This document shows, piece by piece, positions 53,279 to 56,620 of a DNA stretch of 56,620 nt. This DNA comes from Acidimicrobiia bacterium. Its GTDB lineage: Bacteria; Actinomycetota; Acidimicrobiia; Acidimicrobiales; SZUA-35. Made by a program: the position numbers and the translations under genes. The first letter of the stretch is position 1, and each line of letters opens with the position of its first letter. The notes under the pieces were generated by a model. The model had not been told where the DNA came from. It saw only the letters and a list, made by a program, of their open reading frames with translations, and ran no database searches. The stretch covers positions 1 through 56,620 of the forward strand of contig QIKW01000079.1 of assembly GCA_003231975.1 (NCBI GenBank), read 5' to 3'.

Positions 53279-54172
53279 TCAGCTCCACTGGGCCATCAGC
53301 TTGGCGAACTCGTCTGCCGGGCCGTTTGGAACCACGTAGCCCTCTTCAGCGTTGATGGCTTCCCAGTCTTCGGCAACGGTTTCCACCGTGATGTCGGCGC
53401 CGCGGTGAGTGCCAGGGGTTAGCCCGATGAAGTAGCGGGCAATGGTGCCGCCCGCCGCGCTGTAGACACAGCCGCTGGTTTCGTTGCTCTGGTGGGCCAG
53501 GTAAACCACAACCGGAGTTACCAATTTGGGATCAAGTTGATCAGACATTCCACCAAGCAGGTCTTCGGTCATCCGGGTGGCGGCAACCGGAGCGATTGCA
53601 TTTACCAGAATGTTGTACTTCGCCCCTTCCGCGGCCAGAACCCGGGTGAGGCCAACGAGGCCCATTTTGGCTGCCCCATAGTTGGCCTGGCCGAAGTTGC
53701 CGGTGAGGCCGGAGTTGGACGATGTGTTGATCACCCGGCCATAACCCTGCTCTCGCATGTGAACCCACGCAGGCTGAGTGACGTAGAAGGCGCCCCTGAG
53801 GTGCACGTCAAGTACCGAGGTGATCTCGGCAGCCGACATCTTGTGAAAGGTCTTGTCCCGCAGGATCCCCGCGTTGTTGACAACAACGTCGACCTGACCG
53901 AAAGCGTCGATGGCCGCCTGAACAATTGCCTTGCCGCCCTCCTCGGTGGCCACGCTGTCTGCATTGGCAACAGCCTCTGAGCCCAGGGCTTCAATTTCGG
54001 CGACAACAGCCTCGGCCGCCGTTTTCGAGCTGCCGCTGCCATCGACTGACCCACCAAGGTCGTTGACAACCACGCGGGCGCCCCGCTTGGCGAACTCCAG
54101 CGCATGCTCTCGACCCAGCCCTCCACCGGCTCCGGTGATGATCACAACCTTGCCGTCGAATCCCAGTTCCAT
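53279..54172 (-). CDS. SDR-family 3-hydroxyacyl-CoA dehydrogenase-like (MFE-2 type)
   Basis: 297 residues from ATG 54172, with AGGAAA upstream. SDR motifs: V-I-I-T-G-A-G-G-G-L-G-R-E-H (about 10-23), N-N-A-G-I, N-T-S-S-N-S-G and catalytic Y-G-A-A-K. V-V-V-N-D-L-G-G-S and the S-S-K-T-A-A-E segment match the dehydrogenase domain of peroxisomal multifunctional enzyme type 2. Probably beta-oxidation or steroid/acyl-CoA metabolism, in keeping with the adjacent crotonase. Confidence 0.9.
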   Translation of the reverse strand: MELGFDGKVVIITGAGGGLGREHALEFAKRGARVVVNDLGGSVDGSGSSKTAAEAVVAEIEALGSEAVANADSVATEEGGKAIVQAAIDAFGQVDVVVNNAGILRDKTFHKMSAAEITSVLDVHLRGAFYVTQPAWVHMREQGYGRVINTSSNSGLTGNFGQANYGAAKMGLVGLTRVLAAEGAKYNILVNAIAPVAATRMTEDLLGGMSDQLDPKLVTPVVVYLAHQSNETSGCVYSAAGGTIARYFIGLTPGTHRGADITVETVAEDWEAINAEEGYVVPNGPADEFAKLMAQWS

Positions 54173-54277
54173 TTTCTGATTTCCTGCCTGTTCAGTGATT
54201 TGGGTCGTATGTGTATCGGACGGCGCAGAGCATACGGGAGCCAACGGGCGCCGCCAAAGCCGACGGACCGTTCAGCT

Positions 54278-55219
54278 TCAGTTTTGGTTGAACAGCTCCT
54301 GGTCTTCGGGAGACTGCCACTGGGGTTGGTCGCTTCGATCGCTGCGGGTATCGGCGTGCTCTGCTCCTGAAGCGCCTGCCGCTTCTTGGCCCCTGCTCCA
54401 GCTCATCGGGCTGGCCTTCCACGAATCTTGGCTCCATTTAACCCCAATGTCTGCAATAGGCCCGGGCTCGCCAGGCTGTGGCTTCTCCATGGCAACCGCA
54501 AGCTCAAGGGCGTCTTGCACAATCTTTCGTTGCAGCACGGGATCGTTTGGCGGCCCGGCAGTGTGACCAAGCGGAAGATCCACAAATGCAGACCTTGGGG
54601 GGTTCGCCCTTTTTGTGATTGACATGGCGGAAGTAAGCCCAATCGTTGGGAATCCCGCCTCTTCGAGGCTGCGAGCGATCAGACCGATCGACTGGTGGCA
54701 AACCGGTCAAACCGGCACCAGCAACACAAGGTCGGGCTCTTCAGCCTTGCAGTGCTCCAGCAGGGCAGGCACTGTGTCTTCGCCAAGTCGGCGGGTGCTG
54801 TAAATGCCTCCCATGAACGCCGCGGCGGTCGGCGTGACAGCACCGATTGTGCCGTCGGCGGCCAGCTCGTTCAATCGATCAAGGGGGAACACGCAGTTCG
54901 GGTCGACCCGGGCGTCGGTCTGGTCATACGCGAAATGGGCGGTTCGCAGCTGGCTGGTTGGTGAGTTCGACGCGATGGAGCGAATTGAGGTGTCGTCTTT
55001 GGTGTGGAAGGCCTGCTGGCCCGCGAGGTAAACACCGCCGGAACCAATGAGGGTTACCTTGCATTCGTTCAGCGGCTTAGAGATTGGAGCCCAGGGCGGA
55101 GTCTCGTGCCTTTCGGCCCACCTGTACGCGTCGTAACCAAGGCCGCTGTAGAGCCGCCGGGTTTCATCTATGTAGTCGGCTGGCGGAAGGGCGCAAGCGC
55201 CAACCGCGGCGTCGCTCAT
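54278..55219 (-). CDS. Selenoprotein B-family reductase with in-frame UGA (Sec171)
   Basis: 313 residues if TGA at 54709-54707 is read as selenocysteine. Frames 55219-54707 and 54706-54278 are in the same phase and together match the glycine/sarcosine/betaine/D-proline reductase selenoprotein B (GRDB) family: I-G-S-G-G-V-Y-L near 58, D-A-R-V-D-P-N-C-V-F-P-L-D-R-L-N-E-L at about 105-122, L-V-L-L-V-P-V-U-P-V-C-H-Q-S-I-G-L at 164-180 and V-D-L-P-L-G-H-T-A-G about 50 residues later. Homology continues across the stop, so U-P-V-C (171-174) is a redox pair. A SECIS-like hairpin follows. Substrate unknown; the usual GrdA/GrdC partners are absent. The last 45 residues are an extra tail. ATG overlaps the SRPBCC stop by ATGA. 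Confidence 0.85.
54667..54706 (-). promoter_or_regulatory. Candidate bacterial SECIS hairpin
   Basis: Immediately after the UGA, reading the minus strand. The apical loop GGUCU (54685-54681) is closed by CGAUC (54690-54686) and GAUCG (54680-54676). A lower helix can form between GGUU plus GC (54704-54701, 54699-54698) and GC plus AGCC (54672-54671, 54670-54667) with a bulged U at 54700. The loop starts 21 nt after the UGA, within the range of known bSECIS elements, and matches the fdhF SECIS loop (AGGUCU). A competing fold pairs GACCGGUU with GAUCGGUC. Confidence 0.7.
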
Positions 55220-55653
55220 TCAGACTCCAAACGTTGCTGCATTCGTTCTGCCTCTTTGTCTATCCCCGATTCCAGCACCTTGCCAAGTGCGCTGGCCAAT
55301 GGGCCGGTCAAGAATGTTGTGCCCTCGGCGTTAATGGCAAACAGCGCCTCAGTCGCTGCTTCGCCCCGTGGGTCAAGGCTGAGGGTCACCGTTACCTTGA
55401 TTCCCTTGGCTTGGGCCCGCACCGCCATGGACTGGCGGCCCGCTCGCCCAGTGGGGCTGACCGTTGCCTCGTCGTTAACCGTTCCAAGCGGGGTCTTGAG
55501 GCTGAACATGAATGCAGTGAGGTCGCCGGAAACGTCGTGGACCGGGTCTCGAAGTTTGTGAAGCCCGCCAATGCCTTCCCAGGTGCGCACCTTCTGGAGG
55601 CGCTCCCACACCTCATCCACCGGGCGGTTGATCCTCAAGGTTCTCTCTGCCAT
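55216..55653 (-). CDS. SRPBCC/CoxG-like protein coupled to the selenoprotein
   Basis: 145 residues. Pattern of the START/SRPBCC fold: R-T-L-R-I-N-R-P-V-D-E-V-W-E-R-L-Q-K-V at the N-terminus, V-S-G-D-L-T-A-F-M-F-S-L-K-T, and a long C-terminal helix (I-D-K-E-A-E-R-M-Q-Q-R-L). Resembles CoxG-like hydrophobic-ligand binding proteins. Its TGA overlaps the ATG of the selenoprotein gene. A repeat block lies just upstream of its start codon at 55653. Confidence 0.82.
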   Translation of the reverse strand: MAERTLRINRPVDEVWERLQKVRTWEGIGGLHKLRDPVHDVSGDLTAFMFSLKTPLGTVNDEATVSPTGRAGRQSMAVRAQAKGIKVTVTLSLDPRGEAATEALFAINAEGTTFLTGPLASALGKVLESGIDKEAERMQQRLESE

Positions 55654-56071: not shown

Positions 56072-56620
56072 CTAGGACCTAGAGCGCACGCCTGGGAGGA
56101 CGCAGAGCATCTCGTACAGCAGGTTGGCTGCCACCAGTGAGGTGTTGCCGGTTGGGTCATAAGCTGGCGCAACCTCAACCAGGTCGGCGCCAACGATGTT
56201 GAGGCCAGCGCAGCCCCGGATGATTTCGATGCCCTGAATCACTGTGAGGCCACCAATCTCAGGTGTTCCGGTGCCTCCGGCAAAAGCTGGATCCAAGCCG
56301 TCAATGTCGAAGCTCAGATAGACCGGGCCGTCGCCTAGCTGTTCCCGTACCTCCGCCATCAGGGGCGTCAGAGACTTGTGCCAGCACTCCTCGGCCTGGA
56401 CCACGCGGAAGCCCTGATCCCGGGACCAGTCGAAATCGTCAGCGGCATAGCCAGTTGCCCGCACCCCTATTTGCACCACCCTGTTTGGGTCAAGCAGGTT
56501 TTCCTCAACCGCCCTTCGGAACGGAGTGCCATGGGTGATTGCCTCGCCAAACATGGAGTCGTTGATGTCGGTGTGGGCATCAACATGAACCAGGCCAACC
56601 GGGCCGTGCTTTTTCTGCAT
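56072..56620 (-). CDS. Agmatinase/arginase-family ureohydrolase (partial)
   Basis: 182 residues visible; the N-terminus lies beyond the window edge. The Mn-binding motifs are present: V-H-V-D-A-H-T-D (about 11-18) and L-S-F-D-I-D-G-L-D-P, followed by A-G-G-T-G-T-P-E-I-G-G-L-T. The usual first metal motif (G-G-D-H-S) is missing because it is upstream. Agmatinase converts agmatine to putrescine and urea; guanidinobutyrase or proclavaminate amidinohydrolase are alternatives. Confidence 0.9.
   Translation of the reverse strand: MQKKHGPVGLVHVDAHTDINDSMFGEAITHGTPFRRAVEENLLDPNRVVQIGVRATGYAADDFDWSRDQGFRVVQAEECWHKSLTPLMAEVREQLGDGPVYLSFDIDGLDPAFAGGTGTPEIGGLTVIQGIEIIRGCAGLNIVGADLVEVAPAYDPTGNTSLVAANLLYEMLCVLPGVRSRS

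Follow-up and report, generated by a model that had tools for sequence, protein, structure and literature searches.

A predicted stand-alone PrdB-like selenoprotein in an Acidimicrobiales genome

Does an in-frame TGA on the minus strand of an Acidimicrobiia contig end a gene, or does it encode selenocysteine (Sec, U) within one longer protein, and what might such a protein do? We addressed this question in a window of 56,620 nucleotides (the whole stretch of DNA analysed, contig QIKW01000079.1). Under translation table 11, the frame yields a 170-residue open reading frame (ORF; 54707-55219) and a 115-residue ORF (54278-54625). The initial annotation had described two minus-strand frames in one phase, parted by the TGA at 54709-54707 alone, and had expected standard ORF calling to split them. 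We indeed observed both, and reading the TGA as U gives a single chain of 313 residues. The coding features are as follows.

54278..55219, minus strand: predicted PrdB-like selenoprotein coding sequence, 313 residues with U171 (TGA read as U), stop TGA at 54280-54278
54707..54709, minus strand: in-frame TGA, proposed Sec codon of U171, with Cys elsewhere at the same column
54698..54700, minus strand: codon of Cys174, the second residue of U-x-x-C-H and likely the resolving Cys, aligned with the Cys of U-G-T-C-H in PrdB

The in-frame TGA and the selenocysteine machinery

The proposed U171 lies in the context LLVPV-U-PVCHQ, a U-x-x-C-H motif, and orthologues and known PrdB align at this residue, in agreement with the earlier proposal that the TGA occupies the U-x-x-C redox position. 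In the clade of the window copy (support 100/98), all 31 tree members carry TGA at the Sec codon, and all orthologues fetched from it have the TGA at the same codon of LLVPV-U-PVCHQ, with LFVPV in one. The named relatives are metagenome-assembled genomes of Acidimicrobiales (Actinomycetota), the nearest (L051) matching at 66% by database search and at 72% once aligned. Differences from orthologues, counted by codon position (for L051, 10/12/43 and 16/17/37), fall mostly at third positions, downstream of the TGA as upstream. Homologues elsewhere in the tree (L073-L077, L123) carry Cys at the Sec column, in motifs such as VPHCPVCHQ, VPLCPACHQ and VPNCPICHQ, and the U/C column and the Pro that follows it are invariant in a 73-row alignment. 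Because the TGA is kept in every orthologue fetched, the downstream differences lie at third positions and the U/C column is invariant, we reject a chance interruption of the frame.

The source genome, a draft of 275 contigs that is 95.5% complete, encodes the machinery for Sec insertion. selA and selB adjoin on one contig (C16), and selD lies on another (G000:C95:2515-3432, L017) and is itself interrupted by an in-frame TGA; as judged from its sequence, the selenophosphate synthetase of this genome is likely itself a selenoprotein. A tRNA-Sec was detected at 66.4 bits with the anticodon tca (UCA). The genome search for selA, selB, selC and selD that the initial annotation had proposed thus returned selA, selB, selD and tRNA-Sec. 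It had also named a random residue at this position and an unconserved downstream half as evidence against Sec; instead, all homologues have U or Cys there, as it had supposed of the family, and the downstream half is conserved.

Family members were found in 76 of 198 genomes of the order, nearly every match containing exactly one TGA. SelA was detected in 117 of these 198 sampled genomes and in 71 of the 76 family carriers (Fisher p 2.6e-16, in a test that ignores relatedness). Among the five carriers with no SelA match, the four with TGA forms reach no more than 78-85% completeness, and the remaining one (G173, 97% complete) has the Cys form only (L073, G173:C62). The genomes of the other Cys forms, L074-L077, also contain Sec forms. 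A crude window scan for read-through TGAs revealed no convincing second selenoprotein, but it carries limited weight, since it ranked the present case low as well.

The hairpin downstream of the TGA

A SECIS-like hairpin starts about 10 nt past the UGA.

54675..54699, minus strand: SECIS-like hairpin, with 5' arm 54696-54690, loop 54689-54685 (GAUCG) and 3' arm 54684-54678
54699/54675 and 54698/54676, minus strand: lower pairs of this hairpin

With numbering from the U of UGA as position 1, the stem joins nt 14-20 to nt 26-32 across a 5-nt loop, and the lower pairs are 11/35 and 12/34. The window copy pairs at five of the seven main positions, the C.A and U.U mismatches being common to its close relatives. 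Across the family, the hairpin comprises a covarying 7-bp stem and a 5-nt loop, and its register is constant in subfamilies whose amino acids differ (AUCAGUC/GACUGAU and ACCAGAC/GUCUGGU). Further stems in the same register are ACGUGUC/GACACGU, from a paralogue in the source genome (L059), CGCGUAC/GUACGCU and CGGGCGC/GCGCCCU.

Folding energy against synonymous shuffles was unremarkable (mean z -0.46, for a segment starting after the UGA), and single-sequence folding of the window copy favours another structure over the hairpin. Because the energy test was uninformative, we turned to covariation. Among 46 distinct rows, 91.1% of the cells paired, compared with 81.1 +/- 1.0 in shuffles, which ignore relatedness, and 22-38% when the register was slid; in the same rows, five of the nine hairpin pairs had changes on both sides. 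Synonymous sites are frozen at codons +4 to +10 in near relatives of the window copy. Mean codon entropy was 0.24 at codons +3 to +11 and 1.25 outside in 14 rows chosen for sharing the hairpin type, a contrast that arises partly by construction from this selection; the unselected clade gave 0.77 versus 1.42 outside. A search of Rfam with the window and the UGA region returned nothing above threshold, as expected, since that database is not known to us to include a general model for bacterial SECIS elements.

Related hairpins were also observed in diverged relatives. The source genome contains two diverged paralogues (G000:C38:472-1254, L058; G000:C68:13567-14325, L059), in both of which the TGA recurs in frame and a full 7-bp hairpin keeps the register. 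In a sister subfamily (L080-L084, from G139, G178, G070, G024 and G087), the motif is U-P-L-D-H-Q, with Asp replacing the second Cys; these members have a perfect 7-bp SECIS-like stem and lack a resolving Cys in the motif. The more distant L115-L119 show the motif TAT-U-GTGTRC, with a TGA in frame and a hairpin that keeps the register and pairs at six of seven positions.

Taken together, the sel genes and tRNA-Sec, the conserved TGA, the Cys homologues and the covarying hairpin bear out the claim of a selenoprotein at this locus. From these sequence comparisons, the TGA at 54709-54707 is almost certainly decoded as Sec, in a manner dependent on SelB and the hairpin, to give one chain of 313 residues.

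Predicted fold, partner family and possible chemistry

Among named families the protein comes closest to PrdB, which is the selenium subunit of D-proline reductase (TIGR04483, NCBIfam; E 3.1e-48), at 164.3 bits and thus below the equivalog cut-off of 300. Pfam PF07355 (GRDB) scored 30.8 bits against a gathering score of 22, over residues 40-139 only, and TIGR01918 (NCBIfam) scored 32.6 bits, under its cut-off of 65.45. The initial label of selenoprotein B family holds as to a selenoprotein and is better replaced by PrdB, rather than GrdB, as to the family. An AlphaFold model with Cys in place of Sec (pLDDT 86.8, pTM 0.84, block means of 97-99 around residue 171) places residue 171 between a strand (164-168) and a helix (172-187), near Cys174, and builds both ORF halves into one compact alpha/beta domain. 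Sequence and fold searches of the PDB found no resembling entry (none at E < 1e-3 in the fold search). In the 73-row alignment, the invariant columns are Pro112, Asp163, U/C171, Pro172, Glu186, Thr192, Arg209, Gly218 and Gly222, and Cys174 is conserved in at least 90% of the aligned sequences.

The pyruvoyl family that comprises PrdA and GrdE (PF09338) had no match in the source genome, which as a draft makes this absence less than absolute, and was absent from 35 other carriers of the gene, of which 24 have a completeness of 90% or more. Of 149 genomes of the phylum, 7 do match the same model. Since no pyruvoyl partner turned up, this PrdB homologue very probably does not work as a PrdA-PrdB D-proline reductase. 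GrdA also had no match in the source genome, in a search that gave no match to its positive control either. Two genes flank the coding sequence.

55216..55653, minus strand: upstream SRPBCC-like gene (PF10604, E 1.7e-4, below cut-off), with its stop codon overlapping the start of the selenoprotein gene (ATGA)
53279..54244, minus strand: downstream short-chain dehydrogenase, context only (PF00106, E 2e-44; synteny partial)

The SRPBCC-like gene adjoins the selenoprotein gene only here and in the nearest relative. Across relatives the neighbours are unrelated and variable: SRPBCC-like, leucyl aminopeptidase-like, acyl-CoA ligase-like and geranylgeranyl reductase-like, the last three names being given by eye from sequence. 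Raw gene calls contained many spurious GC-rich ORFs and were filtered for coding potential, after which no conserved operon partner was left in the relatives; none was consistent in other subfamilies, and none of the neighbours suggests a substrate. At the end of the contig, an arginase-family gene is cut short (56072-56620; PF00491, E 1.9e-60).

From the missing PF09338 and the unrelated, variable neighbours, the protein is therefore best described as a PrdB homologue that stands alone. Overall, we consider Sec insertion at residue 171 of a stand-alone reductase, a PrdB homologue whose usual partner was not found, to be the best explanation, with a probability of roughly 80%. Our computations show that the UGA is conserved, that the Sec machinery is present, that the SECIS-like hairpin covaries, that Cys replaces Sec in homologues and that the partner family is missing. 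In the proposed mechanism, for which we infer translation itself as well as the substrate, the reductant and the role of U and C as a redox pair, SelB carrying Sec-tRNA-Sec would bind the hairpin and Sec would be inserted at 171. The selenolate of Sec171 might then attack an electrophilic substrate, Cys174 would resolve the adduct to a selenenylsulfide, and a cellular dithiol could reduce this bond back. We lean slightly towards this stand-alone selenol reductase with Cys174 as its resolving residue. The U-C pair is not universal in the family, because one subfamily has UPLDH, with Asp at the position of Cys174.

Two other chemistries and a non-functional origin were weighed against this reading. 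A reductive cleavage of the PrdB/GrdB type, in which the selenolate would cut a C-N or C-halogen bond of a small substrate via a selenoether, either alone or with a carbonyl partner that escaped recognition, is suggested by the homology to PrdB, which spans the whole domain and the active site. Selenoether chemistry features in the mechanisms described for glycine and D-proline reductases (PMC10298544), and work on fluoroacetate implicates a GrdB/GrdE-related pair in C-F cleavage (PMC10838667). However, the absence of PF09338 from the source genome and the other carriers tested, the lack of a conserved operon partner and the motif U-P-V-C-H instead of U-G-T-C-H make this cleavage rather unlikely. 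It is similarly a speculative possibility that the Acidimicrobiales proteins are stand-alone selenoenzymes that keep the PrdB/GrdB selenol chemistry (C-N, C-halogen or similar cleavage), with no pyruvoyl subunit and on a substrate new to the fold.

The U-x-x-C spacing, set where a helix begins, and the variable neighbourhoods, which suit a housekeeping redox role, could also indicate a simple thiol-disulfide or peroxide reductase with thioredoxin-like chemistry, serving redox protection and no dedicated metabolite. We regard this as improbable, because thioredoxin was not among the best matches of the PDB fold search, the conserved Asp163, Glu186 and Arg209 suggest a specific substrate pocket, and some relatives lack the second Cys. 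Standard ORF calling, which splits the gene, might finally point to a pseudogene, a sequencing error or true termination at the TGA with two short proteins as products. This is extremely unlikely: the TGA is present in 31 of 31 clade members and across subfamilies, purifying selection acts on the codons after it, the hairpin shows covariation, the Sec machinery is present and the two halves are modelled as one domain. We therefore rejected a pseudogene or sequencing error on the conserved TGA, the downstream selection, the hairpin and the Sec machinery, and retain Sec insertion into a stand-alone reductase.

Most of the family would be split or lost in standard gene calling, and because of this, selenium use in Acidimicrobiales is probably under-counted. 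The clear separation from PrdA/GrdE makes the role of environmental "PrdB" selenoproteins directly testable, and the family offers a predicted fold with no solved relative, together with Sec, Cys and U-x-x-D forms for comparison.

Comparison with PrdB, GrdB and environmental selenoproteins

D-proline reductase depends on the pyruvoyl group that arises on PrdA, and a selenoether is believed to form at the Sec of PrdB (PMC10298544). The protein described here is homologous to PrdB over residues 41-245 and has 36-39% identity to the records from Enterococcus raffinosus and a Peptoclostridium acidaminophilum plasmid. Its Sec is at the homologous place of U-x-x-C-H, because TAG-U-GTCHR of E. raffinosus PrdB aligns with VPV-U-PVCHQ. 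In contrast to PrdB, it has U-P-V-C-H in place of U-G-T-C-H, belongs to a separate clade and is not encoded in a prd operon, and no PrdA/pyruvoyl family was found in its genome; E. raffinosus prdB sits in a prdC-prdA-prdB-prdD cluster. The P. acidaminophilum plasmid gene annotated as prdB (L122, NZ_CP007453.1 260271-260984) has no prdA among its annotated neighbours, in a gene table that is incomplete. GrdB (PF07355, TIGR01918), the selenoprotein B of the reductases for glycine, sarcosine and betaine, is likewise a UxxC selenoprotein family, but the present protein is shorter and matches the Pfam model only in part, and the GrdE family was not found in the genome. An alphaproteobacterial protein of Haematobacter (L123), annotated as "glycine/sarcosine/betaine reductase selenoprotein B family protein", shares 35% identity and has C-P-I-C-H-Q at the same position, but differs in having Cys instead of Sec and another gene context.

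In the Sargasso Sea metagenome set, UxxC "PrdB" selenoproteins ranked third among the families by abundance, with 42 genes (PMC1088965), and 235 such sequences were listed from the GOS metagenomes (PMC2398784). Set side by side by description only, these UxxC proteins, abundant in marine samples, probably include the kind found here. In their accessible text, neither paper assigns the stand-alone form a function or analyses its partners, and in the accessible portions of recent reviews PrdB appears solely as D-proline reductase (PMC13188914, PMC9312934). No functional study of a stand-alone PrdB-like protein was found in the literature searched. The proposal of a "hidden" selenoprotein outside the clostridia thus holds for this locus and does not hold for the kind, which marine metagenome surveys have catalogued from 2005 onwards (PMC1088965, PMC2398784). 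UxxC PrdB-type selenoproteins themselves were already known; what is new here is a stand-alone Acidimicrobiales clade of them with a covarying SECIS.
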